Made by a program: the position numbers and the translations under genes. Below are positions 1 through 29,420 of a stretch of 29,709 nucleotides of DNA, piece by piece. How positions within the stretch are numbered: position 1 is the stretch's first letter; the number at the start of each line of letters is the position of its first letter. Source of the DNA: Nitrospinota bacterium (GTDB taxonomy: Bacteria; Nitrospinota; Nitrospinia; JACRGO01); assembly GCA_016212295.1 (NCBI GenBank), contig JACRGO010000008.1, positions 1-29,709 on the forward strand, written 5' to 3'. Below the pieces are notes generated by a model. The model was given only the letters and a program-made list of their open reading frames with translations. It was not told the DNA's origin and ran no database searches.

Positions 1-157
1 ATGGGACTGCTTCAAAATTGACAAGTTTATATTTACTGGTTTTCAATTTACCCATAGACCCTAAAATCCTAACTCATTGATTTTGTTGGGTTTTTTAAAA
101 TTGATTTGTTGTTTTTTAATTTATGCGTAGGCTCTATTAATCAAAAAAATCTTTTAA

Positions 158-4683: not shown

Positions 4684-4765
4684 TTTTAACCACAGATTCC
4701 GCAGACGGCACAGATTAAATTATTTTTTATAAAATCTGTGCCGTCTGCGGAATCTGTGGTTAAAA
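4684..4765. repeat. Perfect 33-bp inverted repeat
   Basis: Arms 4684-4716 and 4733-4765 are perfectly complementary over 33 bp with a 16-nt AT-rich loop. The stem contains ACCACAGATTCCGCAG and GGCACAGATT. As RNA it would form a very stable hairpin with A/T-rich edges, so it could stop transcription from either side between ftsK and the reductase operon. Length and perfection suggest a mobile repeat rather than an ordinary terminator. Confidence 0.9.
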
Positions 4766-11116: not shown

Positions 11117-11206
11117 CTGAATTTGGAGGATGCCAGACATATTGTGGGAGAATTTGTCGAGCATTACAATACGATCCGGTTGCATAGCGCAATAGGTTAT
11201 GCCTGA
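11117..11206 (+). pseudogene. IS3-family transposase C-terminal remnant
   Basis: The last 29 codons (LNLEDARHIVGEFVEHYN, then TIRLHSAIGYA and a stop) match the end of the OrfB/rve integrase domain of IS3-family elements, where this segment reads ...EHYNTVRLHSAIGYVTP. Everything upstream, including the DDE residues, is missing; the open frame continues upstream to about 11040 without homology. It is fused at GGTTATG (11195-11201) to the group II intron 3' end, so its stop codon is supplied by intron sequence. Confidence 0.75.
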
Positions 11207-11331
11207 GTTATCGTTTTGCTCCATCATTATGAACCGCCCTGTTAGTGCGTGACCGAAGGAAATCCCTTTAGGGAGAGCCGCATGCAGGGTGGTGCGGGGG
11301 CTGGGGGCCAAACACCCCCGGCTACCCGATT
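11195..11331 (+). mobile_element. Truncated group II intron 3' end (domain V/VI), copy 1
   Basis: 137 nt match 29213-29349 with two mismatches. The copy contains the last codons and stop of the intron maturase (GGTTATGCCTGA), a domain V stem GAACCGCCCTG...CAGGGTGGTG (from 11231), a G/C hairpin (GGGGGCTGGGGGCCAAACACCCCCG) and the 3' terminal CTACCCGAT. The following TAGGC equals the right part of an attC box (GT|TAGGC), as expected for a group IIC-attC intron. The 5' part of the intron and its reverse transcriptase are absent. The domain V apical loop is expanded. Confidence 0.8.
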
Positions 11332-11429
11332 AGGCGGCTTTTCGCTATGAAAGCACTGCCTGTTTATCTGCTTGCGCGCGATGTGCGCTGACAGCCAAAG
11401 TATCGTCCAGTTCTGGCACAATAATCTTG

Positions 11430-11857
11430 CTATGCCTGCCCGTAGGCTTTTGCCAAGAATTTCTCTTCCTGAATTATCTGGCAATGCAAACCAATGATTA
11501 CCACTGCCGCAAAAATCAAAAATATGAGCGCCCCATTTATCAGAAAAGTCCCAATGAAGTAAAGGTCAATGAAAATGAAAATCGGATTTCTGGAAACAGC
11601 AAAAATCCCAGTTGTGATGAGTTCACCCTGCGTTTTCTCGTCAATTCCTGCGCGCCAAGAATCTCTGAAAGAAACCAAAGCCATATGAAGATGATGAAGG
11701 CGATAATTACCGATGCAACCCCGGTGAGTTTTGCTGGCATTGTATCAATCAACTGCATATCTAAAGGCGTGGGGAAAAGCCGAAACTCTGTGTGGAGCGC
11801 ATACAAAAGCACTTCAACAATCCAGACTATCAGTCCCACGAAAAAGGAGAGTTCCAC
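11430..11857 (-). pseudogene. Frameshifted, truncated ICMT-family methyltransferase (integron cassette 4)
   Basis: From a GTG at 11857 the frame gives a membrane protein start (MELSFFVGLIVWIVEVLLY...). After IIFIW the homologous frame shifts by one base near 11685-11690, and the second frame gives ALVSFRDSWRAGIDEK, GELITTGIFAVSRNP and EEKFLAKAYGQA. This is the isoprenylcysteine carboxyl methyltransferase-like (ICMT/PEMT) fold with its conserved G-x-Y/F-x-x-x-R-x-P helix. Inserting one G near TATGG-CTTTGG restores the frame. The C-terminus ends early at a TAG and about 10-15 residues of the family are missing. The gene sits in cassette position with attC3 immediately upstream. Either it is dead or the shift is a sequence error. 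Confidence 0.75.
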
Positions 11858-11877
11858 GATGCGTTGGAGATCTTTCT

Positions 11878-11959
11878 TTCCAACGCCTGGTTCGCAAGCC
11901 GCCTTTGGCGGCGAAGCGAAACAGTGCGGAGGAACCGGAGGGTCAACTCGTTGTTAGCC
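11878..11959 (-). other. attC site 3 (end of DUF6326 cassette)
   Basis: Minus strand: R'' box GGCTAAC (11953-11959) to R' box GTTGGAA (11878-11884), 82 nt. Internal arms (CTGGTTCGC versus GCGGAGGAACC) can pair, with an internal hairpin GCCGCC/GGCGGC. The R'' box is complementary to the first bases of its own cassette (TTAGCC at 12370), as the circular cassette model requires. The DUF6326 stop codon overlaps the R'' box. Confidence 0.75.
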
Positions 11960-12340
11960 CGATTGCCTGGTGATTTTTTCCTGTTCCGTCCATTTCCACG
12001 CACACCAGATAATTAGAACCATACACGCGACTTCAATTGTTGCGAAAAATACATAAGAGACACTCGTGTTTCCACCGCCAATAACCCAAAGAATAGTTAT
12101 TGCGCCTGCGATGATATTTGCCCAGCGATTTGCTTTGTATTTCAGGAACCGGGACAGGACAATCATCGCAATCGGAATCTCCAGCAGTATTGAGAATACC
12201 AACAACATTCCTTGTGTTGGCTTCATCGCTATCATTTCCTCCAAGGTCCCAGGATTCAGAAACCCGACGATGTCCGCAAACACCATGTTAAACATTACGA
12301 ATACCCAGAGTGTTGAGAGCCTTACCTTTATGTCTTCCAT
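11954..12340 (-). CDS. DUF6326-type membrane protein (integron cassette 3)
   Basis: The product is 128 residues from ATG 12340, chosen because AAGGAA lies just upstream and the cassette boundary (12370) excludes longer starts. It has four predicted membrane helices: LSTLWVFVMFNMVFADIVGF; MLLVFSILLEIPIAMIVL; WANIIAGAITILWVIGG; and YVFFATIEVACMVLIIWCAW. The N-terminus MEDIKVRLSTLWVF matches the DUF6326 family as I recall it; no function is known. The gene fills its 487-bp cassette, leaving about 30 nt of leader, so it relies on a promoter outside the cassette. Confidence 0.8.
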   Translation of the reverse strand: MEDIKVRLSTLWVFVMFNMVFADIVGFLNPGTLEEMIAMKPTQGMLLVFSILLEIPIAMIVLSRFLKYKANRWANIIAGAITILWVIGGGNTSVSYVFFATIEVACMVLIIWCAWKWTEQEKITRQSG

Positions 12341-12364
12341 AAGAATTTCCTTTGTCACATGGAG

Positions 12365-12451
12365 GGCTAACGTTTCAACTAAGCCGCGCCGCCACGAACA
12401 CCACCACGAAGTGCGCCGCTGACCGGCGTCGGCTTGAGTGCATTGTTGGGC
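12365..12451 (-). other. attC site 2 (end of cassette 2)
   Basis: Minus strand: R'' GCCCAAC (12445-12451), L'' box CAAGCCGACGCCGG, L' box GCGCGGCTTAGTTG, R' GTTAGCC (12365-12371), 87 nt in total. The arm sequences closely resemble attC sites of classical aad-type cassettes (CAAGCCGACGCCG / GCGCGGCTTAA). R'' complements the first bases of cassette 2 (TTGGGC at 12830). This is the clearest attC of the array. Confidence 0.9.
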
Positions 12452-12830
12452 TGCGGCGTTAAACAAAACCCCGACCAGTAAACACACGGGATTCCCCACC
12501 AGCGGCACTACCAAACTGCATTGTTGCCCCAGACCTGGCGCGCCACTGGACGTTACGTTTTTATCAATGCCTTTGGCCGGGCTTGGTGCTGCCTGGCCGA
12601 AGCCACTGAACTTGATGAGTTGATGCTACTTGAACAAAGCGCACCAAGCCACACTTGCTCAACTCTTTTGTTGACCACCGTTTGGTCTATCGCCACAGCG
12701 GTGATGAACGGAGTTGCATTTGTTTAATTCACTCGTGGCCCTTGCCGAAGCAAGACCACACGCGAGCGCTACAACGTTGAATCACGCACTGCGCATGACA
12801 GAGAACTTATCTTTCGCTCTTGCCGCCCAA
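12371..12830 (-). other. Integron cassette 2 without a convincing gene
   Basis: The 460-bp cassette is defined by recombination points at attC1 and attC2. In cassette orientation the only frames are very short (about 20 codons from 12523). A 68-codon frame lies on the opposite strand (12521-12727, TTG start, no ribosome binding site). Two hairpins are prominent: CTTGC-TTCG-GCAAG with flanking CTCG/CGAG arms (about 12733-12767), and GGCTTGGTGC/GCACCAAGCC (12580-12651). It may carry a regulatory RNA, a promoter or nothing functional. Confidence 0.6.
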
Positions 12831-12911
12831 CGTAGAGGTGACCGGCGCTGCGCGGCTTCATCGCGCAGCGTCCAGAGAGCGAAGCGAACGAGGTCGACCG
12901 CCGGGTTATAC
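12825..12911 (-). other. attC site 1 (end of VOC cassette)
   Basis: Minus strand: R'' GTATAAC (12905-12911) to R' GTTGGGC (12825-12831), 87 nt. The inner boxes GGTCGACC and GGTGACC differ by one unpaired base, the usual extrahelical base that gives attC its polarity. The centre has CTGCGCG/CGCGCAG complementarity. R'' complements the first bases of the VOC cassette (TTATAC at 13323). Confidence 0.85.
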
Positions 12912-12912
12912 G

Positions 12913-13290
12913 TCACTGTTTGATTGGCTGCATTAGGTGGGCAATGGCACCGGTAGGGTCTGCAACAATGCAAACTCGGCCAACGTCGGGAACCTCATGC
13001 GGGGGTACTACAACAGTTCCACCAAGCAGAGGCGCCTGCTTCGCGCATTCATCGATGTCTTCCACGGCGATATAGGAATGCCAGAATGACTCGCGGCTTG
13101 GTGTCTCCGGTGTTGGATTCATCATTCCAGCAACATCCTGACCTTCCTTCTGAAACAACGTGTAGGTACCGAACTTCCCGGCATCTACTTCCTTGCGCGT
13201 CCAGCCAAAAAGCTGACTGAAGAATGCTCCACTTCTTTTCTGGTCTGGAGTGACTAGCTCGTGCCAGATAAATGGACTTTGGTCTGTCAT
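12913..13290 (-). CDS. VOC-superfamily (glyoxalase/bleomycin-resistance-type) protein, integron cassette 1
   Basis: The product has 125 residues; ATG 13290 has GGAGG 7 nt upstream. It is one vicinal oxygen chelate module with two beta-alpha-beta-beta-beta units: WHELVTPDQKRSGAFFSQLF with FGWTRKEVDAGKFGTYTLF, then FWHSYIAVEDIDECAKQA with GGTVVVPPHEVPDVGRVCIV and ADPTGAIAHLMQP. His10 and His71 are candidate metal ligands. Substrate unknown; members include glyoxalases, fosfomycin- or bleomycin-type resistance proteins and many orphans. It is the first cassette after attI, hence the best expressed in a typical integron. Confidence 0.88.
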   Translation of the reverse strand: MTDQSPFIWHELVTPDQKRSGAFFSQLFGWTRKEVDAGKFGTYTLFQKEGQDVAGMMNPTPETPSRESFWHSYIAVEDIDECAKQAPLLGGTVVVPPHEVPDVGRVCIVADPTGAIAHLMQPIKQ

Positions 13291-13317
13291 AGGGCCTCCG
13301 TCAGTGTGGATTGAGAC

Positions 13318-13395
13318 GTATAACAGGGCAATAAGTGGAAAGTTTCCATGATATTGCCCGCTATGGATGGAAAGATTTTCCGCTTATTGCGATAT
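13318..13395 (-). promoter_or_regulatory. Putative attI site and intI/cassette intergenic region
   Basis: The attI/cassette 1 junction is GTATAAC at 13318-13324 (minus strand G|TTATAC). Between this point and intI is an inverted pair CAATAAGTGGAAA (13329-13341) and TTTTCCGCTTATTG (13376-13389) with one mismatch, and a second pair GGGCAATA/TATTGCCC (13326-13333 and 13351-13358). These could be integrase-binding sites. A cassette promoter Pc is expected here or inside intI, but I could not pick a convincing -35/-10 pair, and no LexA box (CTGT-N8-ACAG) was found. Confidence 0.6.
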
Positions 13396-13407
13396 CAGGA
13401 GTAAAAA

Positions 13408-14406
13408 ATGGAAAATAAACGAAAATTCAAACCCAACACTTCCCTCAAACTCATGGACCAAGTTCGAGAGGTATTGCGTTACCACCATTACGCCATTCGA
13501 ACCGAGACCACCTACTGCCAGTGGATACTGCGCTACATCCATTTTTTCGGTGGAAAAACACACCCAAAAAAACTGGGCGCTACCGATGTGGAAAAATTTT
13601 TATCCCACTTGGCCACGCAGGGACAGGTCTCCGCGTCCACTCAGCGCCAGGCATTAAACGCCCTTATCTTTCTCTATCGCGAAGTCCTGGATATATCCCT
13701 TGAAGAAAAAATTGCTCCAGTCCGCGCAAAAAAGCAACCTCGTCCACCGACCGTACTGACCCAGGAAGAAACCCCGTTCCTTCTCCGTGAGATCAGCGGG
13801 ACCCACGCCCTTATGGCTAAACTACTTTACGGCTCCGGCCTTCGCCTCATGGAGTGCATAAGACTTCGCATCCAGGATATTGATTTCGGCCAAAACAACA
13901 TTTTTGTCCGTGCCGGCAAGGGCGGAAAGGACCGAACAACCATCCTGCCGAAAAACCTTCGCGAGGAACTTCAAATACACGTCAAGCGCGTTATTGAGCT
14001 GCACCATCGCGATGTGGATGAGGGCTTCGGGAAAGTGTATATACCTCCGGCTTTGGCCCGCAAATTTAAAAACGCGGAGAATGAAACCCGTTGGCAATAC
14101 GTCTTCCCCGCTAAAAAAAGGTCCGTGGACCCAAGATCAGACCGTGAAATGCGGCATCACGTATTGGAATCCGGGCTACAAAAAGCGGTCAAAGCCGCCT
14201 CGGACCGCGCTGGAATCCAAAAACGTGTGGGCTGCCATACTCTCAGGCACAGTTTCGCAACCCATATGCTGGAAAACGGCGTAAATATCCGGGTCCTTCA
14301 AACGTTGCTGGGGCACGCCGATGTCAAAACCACGGAAATTTATACCCATGTCATGCAACGCGATATTGATGGTCTTCAAAGTCCGCTGGACCGGTTGAAC
14401 GATTAG
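13408..14406 (+). CDS. intI: Integron integrase (IntI-type tyrosine recombinase)
   Basis: The product has 332 residues; ATG 13408 follows AGGAG. The N-terminal SAM-like core-binding domain is residues 12-100. The catalytic domain holds Arg146 (YGSGLRLME), Lys174 (GKGGKDRTTILP), His277-x-x-Arg280 (CHTLRHSFATH), His303 (LLGHADVKTTE) and nucleophile Tyr312 (IYTHV). Between patches II and III it carries the IntI-specific extra segment (about 212-262, including RWQYVFPAKKRSVDPRS and HVLESGLQKAV), which binds the extrahelical bases of attC and separates IntI from XerC/D. It is intact and divergent from the minus-strand cassette array, the normal integron layout. It inserts and excises cassettes at attI/attC. 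Confidence 0.96.
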   Translation: MENKRKFKPNTSLKLMDQVREVLRYHHYAIRTETTYCQWILRYIHFFGGKTHPKKLGATDVEKFLSHLATQGQVSASTQRQALNALIFLYREVLDISLEEKIAPVRAKKQPRPPTVLTQEETPFLLREISGTHALMAKLLYGSGLRLMECIRLRIQDIDFGQNNIFVRAGKGGKDRTTILPKNLREELQIHVKRVIELHHRDVDEGFGKVYIPPALARKFKNAENETRWQYVFPAKKRSVDPRSDREMRHHVLESGLQKAVKAASDRAGIQKRVGCHTLRHSFATHMLENGVNIRVLQTLLGHADVKTTEIYTHVMQRDIDGLQSPLDRLND

Positions 14407-14615: not shown

Positions 14616-15038
14616 TCATTGCGGGCAGTTTTTCATGTAGCCCATCACTTCATTCGTAAAAACAATAACGTCATCGAGGCGGCGCTCAATCACATCCTTC
14701 ATGACTCCAACATCAAACTCCTGATACTCGTGGACAAGGATATTGCGGAAACCGACCATCCCCTTCAGCTTGCCCGCAATCTCCCGCGTGATGACATGCT
14801 CCGCCTCAAGAATGCCGAAACTTTCCTTGCTCTCCTTGGGGAGTCCGAGTTTTCTCTTTTTAATGACATGATTCGCCAAATCAATCGCCTGCTCCGCTAT
14901 CCTTTGAAGATTGGCCGCGATGGCGTCCTGCTTCATGTAATCTTCCTCGAACGGCGCCTCGGAAGGCATTGCGTAATATAATCGTATCTGCCTGACGCAT
15001 CGTTCGATGCTCTCTTTTTTATTCAACACCACGTCCAT
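14616..15038 (-). CDS. hepT: HepT-like toxin (DUF86/HEPN RNase)
   Basis: The product is 140 residues from ATG 15038. It is an all-helical HEPN-fold protein of the DUF86 family. The catalytic R-x4-6-H motif is visible as GFRNILVHEY near residue 100, and the NLQRIAEQAIDLANHVI helix is typical. In characterised HepT/MntA pairs it is an RNase-type toxin silenced by AMPylation of the tyrosine next to the motif (the HEY tyrosine). The start overlaps the stop of the upstream antitoxin gene by one base (TGATG), indicating translational coupling. The pair lies next to the integron integrase but outside the cassette array. Confidence 0.92.
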   Translation of the reverse strand: MDVVLNKKESIERCVRQIRLYYAMPSEAPFEEDYMKQDAIAANLQRIAEQAIDLANHVIKKRKLGLPKESKESFGILEAEHVITREIAGKLKGMVGFRNILVHEYQEFDVGVMKDVIERRLDDVIVFTNEVMGYMKNCPQ

Positions 15039-15454
15039 CAACAGAGTATCCTCCCGCTCCGCATGACCTCCCGCAGAATGCCGGAGCGCTCTTCATTCAA
15101 CTTCTGGTATAGCGACATGGCCGTCATCTCGAAGCAATCCACAGGATAATCCCCGGTTTTGTATATAACCCTTCCTTCTTTGATAATTTCATGCTGGAAA
15201 ACAGTATTCGCCATCCGCAGGTTGACTAAATCGATGGTTCTTCGCAAGGCGGTTTCAAGGGCATGGCGGCATGGGCTCATCGCTAGGTTTTTAACGGATT
15301 TAGCCCCGTGAGGCGGCAAAAGAAGGGCAATGTCCACATCGCTGCCGCCGCCCTCCCCGGCCGTTCCGTATGTCCCGAAGAGATAAACCGCTTCCACATC
15401 GGAATAAAAATCCAGGATTATTTTCACTATAACGGTGGTCTCGTTAACATCCAT
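15038..15454 (-). CDS. mntA: MntA-like antitoxin (minimal nucleotidyltransferase)
   Basis: The product is 138 residues from ATG 15454, preferred over a frame reaching 15490 because AAAGGA precedes it closely. The nucleotidyltransferase signature is VEAVYLFGTYGTAGEGGGSDVDIALL, in two parts: FGTYG in place of the usual GSxARG, and the metal-binding SDVDIAL. The C-terminal half carries the RTIDLVNLRMANTVFQHEI segment common in this family. In the known system MntA adds AMP to HepT and neutralises it. Gene order antitoxin-toxin with overlap fits. The Ser-to-Thr change in the GS motif is mild and seen in relatives. Confidence 0.9.
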   Translation of the reverse strand: MDVNETTVIVKIILDFYSDVEAVYLFGTYGTAGEGGGSDVDIALLLPPHGAKSVKNLAMSPCRHALETALRRTIDLVNLRMANTVFQHEIIKEGRVIYKTGDYPVDCFEMTAMSLYQKLNEERSGILREVMRSGRILC

Positions 15455-15540
15455 TTCTTTTCCTTTTAAGAAATCGCAAAATCTTAGCATATCGCCATAC
15501 CTAAAGAAAGTTCAGTTTGAGTAAATCAATCCCCTTATAT

Positions 15541-28499: not shown

Positions 28500-29348
28500 T
28501 GTTTGGCGAAAGCCAACGGCGGGGCTCCAGGAGTTGATGGAGCCACCATTGAAGACTTTCCCGGCCTTATTCGCTCTCACTGGCCCCGAATCAGCCAAAC
28601 CCTGTTGGATGGGAAGTACGAACCCTCCGCCGTGAAACGGGTCATGATCCCGAAACGAAGTGGAGGGGAACGGCCCCTCGGGATACCCACGGTCCAGGAC
28701 CGGGTAATCCAGCAAGCCATCCAGCGCCTTGGGTTTACGTTTTACGCCAGGGGAAGGAAAGTCCGATGGCCGGATCAAGCCTTCCTGGACTTCAAGCATC
28801 GCGTCCGTAAATTGACGGGACGGAGTCGGGGAGCCTCCCTGAAATACCGGTTTCAAACTCTTGCCCGCTATGTCAGAGGTTGGATGACGATTCGTCAGGA
28901 CAGACGAATTGGACGGTGTTTTTAACCGCCCGGAGGGCGAGGCCCATGGACGGGCCGAGTCAACTATTTTGGAATTTCCGACTACTACAACCGGGAACGG
29001 AAAAAAAATCCCCGGATGGATATTTTTTCGCGCAAGCCCGAAGGGTAGCGGACAGGACGTCCGCTACAAAACGCCATGCGATTATGACGGGCCTTAGCGG
29101 CAAGAGCTACTGGCATCTGTCGAAAACCTTGGCCACTCAAACCGGAATGACCGATAGTTGGCTTAAAAGCCAGGGTTTGATCTCCGTGCGTGATCGTTGG
29201 ATGAAAGCGCATGGTTATGCCTGAGTTATCGTTTTGCTACATCATTATGAACCGCCCTGTTAGTGCGTGACCGAAGGAAATCCCTTTAGGGAGACCCGCA
29301 TGCAGGGTGGTGCGGGGGCTGGGGGCCAAACACCCCCGGCTACCCGAT
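28500..29348 (+). mobile_element. Decayed group II intron (IIC-attC type), copy 2
   Basis: The fragment begins abruptly inside the reverse transcriptase N-terminus near 28500, so domains I-III are missing. It runs through the broken maturase gene (to 29224) and ends with domain V (GAACCGCCCTG from 29249, partner CAGGGTGGTG), a G/C hairpin and CTACCCGAT at 29340-29348. The next bases TGGGC equal the right part of an attC box (GT|TGGGC). 137 nt of this end (29213-29349) equal 11195-11331 with two differences. Confidence 0.85.
28503..29224 (+). pseudogene. Group II intron reverse transcriptase/maturase, broken
   Basis: Piece 1 starts at RT block 0/1 (AKANGGAPGVDGATIEDFPG, KRVMIPKRSGGERPLGIPTV, QDRVIQQAIQR). 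It then jumps near 28725 to the thumb and maturase region (LGFTFYARGRKVR, FKHRVRKLTGRSRGASLKYR, LARYVRGWM). All palm motifs including YADD are deleted. An in-frame 72-nt insert (28887-28958) brings a stop codon, after which VNYFGISDYYN resumes. A frameshift then leads to the last part (KRHAIMTGLSGKSYWHLSKT, then LISVRDRWMKAHGYA and a stop). It cannot be active. The pieces match the class C-type RT that serves attC-targeting introns. Confidence 0.88.
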
Positions 29349-29420
29349 TGGGCCTCAGGCATATTAAGTTCGAGCCTGCTACCTGGAAGGTCTTGGCACG
29401 ACGATATTGTCGGCAACCCA

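Follow-up and report, generated by a model that had tools for sequence, protein, structure and literature searches.

A small integron with three stacked cassettes and a decayed array end in a Nitrospinota draft genome

Organisation of the locus

The window, by which we mean the whole stretch of 29,709 nucleotides analysed here (contig JACRGO010000008.1 of the Nitrospinota assembly GCA_016212295.1), carries an integron integrase gene, intI, that encodes a protein of 332 aa on the plus strand (13408..14406) and is preceded by attI and the intI upstream region (13325..13407), recognised by alignment with 11 relatives. On the minus strand, divergent from the integrase ORF, lie three cassettes of 493, 460 and 487 bp (cassette 1, 12831..13323; cassette 2, 12371..12830; cassette 3, 11884..12370). 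They are followed by a frameshifted methyltransferase gene and, on the plus strand, by remains of an intron and of a transposase, which break the far end of what is a genuine integron of well-known kind.

Both the array end and the chromosomal placement depend on a draft assembly of 237 contigs, in which a search for 16S rRNA found none. Within this draft, housekeeping-type ORFs flank the integron on both sides, as in a chromosomal location; from their translations, inspected by eye, we take the window neighbours to be FtsK-like, ArgS-like, HisF-like, fumarase-like and haem-copper oxidase ORFs. Just downstream of intI (14616-15490) there is a HepT-like and nucleotidyltransferase (MNT-like) gene pair, which is a probable toxin-antitoxin module.

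The integrase

The intI product scores 438.8 bits with TIGR02249, the integron integrase model (cut-off 265), about 290 bits ahead of the XerC and XerD models (136-146 bits). Its phmmer alignment with 2A3V (VchIntI4) is full-length (E 5.8e-92); the IntI-specific insert ALARKFKNAENETRWQYVFPA is present, the catalytic R, K, HxxR, H and Y are all aligned and the reading frame is intact, which bears out the initial annotation of an intact integrase with this insert. We also ran the tree with Xer outgroups that had been proposed as a check. Among its 34 proteins, including five Xer-like recombinases, IntI and Xer are separated with a support of 99/94, and the window protein falls on the IntI side, in a four-member clade (support 100/93) with integrases from MAGs of Scalindua, Troglogloeales and Thiodiazotropha. 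The Scalindua MAG belongs to the Planctomycetota, and its integrase is 81% identical to that of the window. The window integrase thus shares full-length homology, including the insert, with VchIntIA (IntI4, PDB 2A3V) and with IntI1 (45% identity over 97% of the protein), but it belongs to a different clade from these and its attI has repeated boxes of its own. That the enzyme might be an ordinary XerC/D-type recombinase lying beside chance inverted repeats has virtually no likelihood left: the Xer models match the product too, with a lower score, but the TIGR02249 margin, the alignment with 2A3V including the insert and the tree refute this identity, and the attC covariance matches and the cassette arrays of relatives also speak against it.

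Cassettes and their closure

Each of the three cassettes is closed, its first bases being complementary to the R'' box of its own attC: TTATAC and GTATAAC for cassette 1, TTGGGC and GCCCAAC for cassette 2, TTAGCC and GGCTAAC for cassette 3. The boundaries, R'' boxes and lengths given before were recomputed and are all exact, as are the attC lengths of 87, 87 and 82 bp. A search for R''/R' complementarity inside single sites did not recover the three attC sites; closure must be tested along the cassette, because in a tandem array R' belongs to the next cassette.

To estimate the chance of closure, the 29.7-kb strand was shuffled 100 times with a Markov model. A three-closure chain with these spacings was found somewhere on the strand in 9% of shuffles, which is about 0.0009 per 300-bp stretch, and a chain that starts at attI is well beyond chance. 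The earlier argument that chance would not produce such complementarity three times holds for this chain beside intI, and is weaker if closure is taken by itself at any place in the window. Chains of closed cassettes, on the strand that diverges from intI, are also present in several relatives.

attC sites

Rfam gave no attC or intron-end match in the window at gathering scores, and nothing relevant up to an E-value of 1. We therefore built our own attC covariance model from 15 sites of relatives' arrays and plasmids, from which the window sites were excluded; its structure was set by hand, as RNAalifold found no pairs and the central parts of the alignment differ in length. In a search of 119 kb, attC1 (12825..12911, minus strand, 87 bp) and attC2 (12365..12451, minus strand, 87 bp) reached 35.2 and 34.7 bits (E about 6e-6 and 8e-6); they are the only strong matches in the window and are within the top three over the whole 3.7-Mb genome. 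A second, box-and-stem score was trained on 23 sites from elsewhere, with 40 shuffles to supply maxima. It placed attC2 first and attC1 second in the window, both above all 40 shuffle maxima. Because one training sequence is similar to attC1, the scoring of this site is not wholly independent.

The covariance check that the initial annotation had called for thus upholds attC1 and attC2, while the atypical attC3 (11878..11959, minus strand, 82 bp) was missed by the model, even with filters off. In the box-and-stem scan attC3 ranked fifth in the window, with a score (23.8) within the range of the shuffle maxima. The main support for attC3 as a candidate site comes from its exact closure and from an attC-like relative on another contig (C199), which is 92% identical, has the same GGCTAAC R'' and directly follows an ORF that ends in it; the stop codon of the DUF6326 gene of cassette 3, which falls inside the R'' of attC3, is further support.

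Of the three attC sites of the window, attC3 alone belongs to a type that recurs in the genome. DNA resembling it, with 92-96% identity, occurs in five other contigs as part of a repeat of roughly 140-170 bp (C126, C127 twice, C159, C182 and C199). We rejected these repeats as copies of attC3, as an R'' with the pattern NNNNAAC is missing from four of the five contigs, and the C199 copy alone was used in support of the site. In several places AACTGTCTAATAACTTG-like sequence and ORFs lined up on one strand lie near the repeats, and these regions are possibly cassette clusters without an integrase.

Elsewhere in the window (4684-4765) there is a near-perfect palindrome of 82 bp with a fold of about -42 kcal/mol (DNA parameters); its weak Rfam matches to animal miRNAs were dismissed as chance hairpin matches.

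Cassette cargo

Cassette 1 encodes a VOC (glyoxalase-like) protein of 125 aa (12913..13290, minus strand; PF00903, E 9e-12) and cassette 3 a DUF6326 membrane protein of 129 aa (11954..12343, minus strand; PF19851, E 2.5e-18). Cassette 2 has short ORFs only and no convincing gene; with its good attC, it resembles in this the gene-less cassettes of Vibrio superintegrons. Gene-less Vibrio cassettes often act as promoters, an activity that has been shown for many of them (PMC11014356).

The 3' half of cassette 1, together with most of attC1, is 89% identical over 263 bp to a stretch of plasmid pAZKH of Azoarcus sp. KH32C; on the plasmid, the matching DNA ends beside an IS3 transposase gene and a line of genes that share a strand. 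By this match, cassette 1 is mobile and shared with a betaproteobacterial plasmid.

attI and its repeated boxes

The cassettes are joined to attI beside intI at a G^TT crossover, which lies on the minus strand between 13324 and 13323. In the alignment with 11 relatives, conservation runs from AACAG (13322 onward, plus strand) into intI, and the cassette side is unrelated; as conservation starts there, the alignment places the crossover independently of the closure argument made before.

Comparison with the relatives also revealed 13-bp boxes. In the window, box 1 (CTTTCCACTTATT, 13330..13342, minus strand) adjoins the crossover and box 2 (TTTTCCGCTTATT, 13376..13388, plus strand) lies 46 bp from it. 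Many relatives have TTTTCCACTTATT repeats upstream of intI, typically four, with spacings of about 47, 53 and 29 bp, where 0.06-0.46 box matches per region would be expected by chance; one box stands beside the crossover and the others are spread across the region upstream of intI. The window has only the first pair and lacks a second unit of roughly 82 bp that most relatives keep. The IntI clade with TTTTCCACTTATT boxes is represented in Planctomycetota, Nitrospirota, Pseudomonadota and former deltaproteobacterial MAGs. Gammaproteobacterial relatives have different boxes (AAGACTACCTATT, AAGGCGCCCTATT) near a common core, TATTNCGATATT, in a similar layout.

We infer from this pattern that the boxes may be integrase-binding direct repeats. 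The class 1 site attI1 has the repeats DR1 and DR2, and V. cholerae attIA is without such repeats (review, PMC8946536). Our tentative proposal, to which we give slightly less than even credence, is that in this IntI clade up to four 13-bp TTTTCCACTTATT boxes at fixed spacing, bound by the integrase, would form one unit of attI and intI control that travels with the enzyme, and that the window would have lost the second unit by natural deletion.

The decayed far end

Beyond cassette 3 lies a PEMT/ICMT-like methyltransferase gene (11430..11857, minus strand) split into two overlapping ORFs (11857-11540 and 11684-11430), of which only the C-terminal piece matches PF04191 (E 8.1e-12); the split gene is either a pseudogene or a sequencing error. 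We considered a fourth closed cassette at 11332-11883 and rejected it: its start, TTGGAA, has no TTCCAAC downstream, and the bases in the R'' position, AGGC (11332-11335), are a mismatch. The initial annotation had listed as cargo a VOC protein, a gene-less cassette, a DUF6326 protein and an ICMT-like methyltransferase; the first three stand and the last is frameshifted and outside any closed cassette. This end of the array is where that annotation needs its strongest correction.

The array is followed by a sequence that fits a group IIC-attC-type intron reduced to its 3' end (11195..11330, plus strand), opposite in orientation to the cassettes and with a 3' exon that opens with T-AGGC (11331-11335). 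It is 98% identical over 141 bp to another part of the window (29213-29353) and 92% identical to a stretch of a further contig (C128:16556-16619); the three intron ends all finish in CCCGAT, followed by T-AGGC, T-GGGC or T-AGGT (T-RRRY). Published introns of the group IIC-attC type target TTGT/T within the R'' box of attC and are oriented against the cassettes (PMC7923331). The remnant shares with them this orientation and a T-RRRY 3' exon that fits TTGT/T insertion, and differs in that only the 3' end is left, with the 5' exon missing and no reverse transcriptase at the site. The second group II intron remnant of the window (28503-29348) has the same 3' end, then T-GGGC; its reverse transcriptase is a fragment that lacks the core (28503-28925) and scores 102.7 bits with TIGR04416, below the cut-off of 300. 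As T-GGGC follows this remnant, there may be another attC-like target at the contig end.

Fused upstream of the intron end at 11195 is the C-terminal scrap of a transposase, seen in translation (11123..11194, plus strand, ending in ...EFVEHYNTIRLHSAIG), which we take from its motif, recognised by eye, to be IS3-like.

Relatives and origin of the platform

Chromosomal integrons of Smithella and other former Deltaproteobacteria share with the window a supported IntI clade, an intI divergent from minus-strand cassettes and a homologous attI, and a Smithella array contains an attC homologous to attC1, of the same length of 87 bp. Compared with these and other environmental chromosomal integrons, the window has no more than three verified cassettes, whose attC sites are unlike one another, an attI shortened to one box pair and an array end broken by the remnant of an intron. 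The hallmark of sedentary chromosomal integrons, a long array with mutually similar attC sites, is accordingly not seen in these three cassettes.

As the closest kin of the integrase are found in other phyla, the platform looks horizontally acquired, and horizontal movement of the integron platform is likely, with the caveat of binning errors in MAGs. The description of the integron as chromosomal, made at the outset, fits its neighbours and sits less easily with an integrase that is 81% identical to that of a Planctomycetota MAG; within its own genus, for which just one further genome was found, the nearest integrase reaches 56% identity. Such a distribution would also arise if the contig were misbinned and the integron came from another organism; we regard this as improbable, since five further contigs of this genome contain attC3-like DNA and the window begins with the same 135 bases as contig C50.

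The genome has three further integron integrase genes. Those on contigs C146 and C182 score 441 and 384 bits with TIGR02249, the latter with an N-terminal extension of roughly 146 aa, and a broken one is found on C50; DNA 93% similar to window 1-135 lies beside the C182 gene.

State of the integron and implications

The integrase, attI, the three closed cassettes, two canonical attC sites and the plasmid link of cassette 1 were all found in the sequence, and we hold it very probable that the locus is a small, chromosomally placed integron whose three stacked cassettes were assembled by the integrase and whose far end has decayed. On this model the integrase would be active and insert cassettes at attI, recombining attC, as a folded bottom strand, with attI at its G^TT (13324), so that the cassettes would be stacked with the newest adjoining attI and transcribed away from intI, presumably from a promoter in the intI/attI region. 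At the far end, the ICMT-like gene would have been frameshifted and its attC lost; beyond it, an attC R'' box would have been hit by a group IIC-attC-type intron, later reduced to its 3' end and fused to the transposase scrap.

It is also conceivable, though on balance unlikely, that the integron is dead and decaying, the intact ORF being barely expressed without the second attI box and promoter unit and the array being fixed. The missing unit of roughly 82 bp, kept in most relatives, would agree with this, as would the ICMT frameshift and the intron and transposase remnants; a promoter scan, which is weak evidence, found no sigma-70-like promoter, and hence no Pc, in 13300-14000. Against it stand the intact frame of the integrase with all its catalytic residues, and the clean attC sites and perfect closures of cassettes 1 and 2.

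The locus described here adds a verified small integron, one cassette of which is shared with a plasmid of Betaproteobacteria. It also links, at the end of a single array, an integron with an attC-targeting intron and debris of a transposase. The multi-box attI of this IntI clade is the most interesting lead and merits a further look, as the attI comparison offers a testable case of attI co-evolving with its integrase and of direct-repeat attI outside class 1. If the integrase binds the boxes, direct-repeat attI sites would not be peculiar to class 1 mobile integrons.
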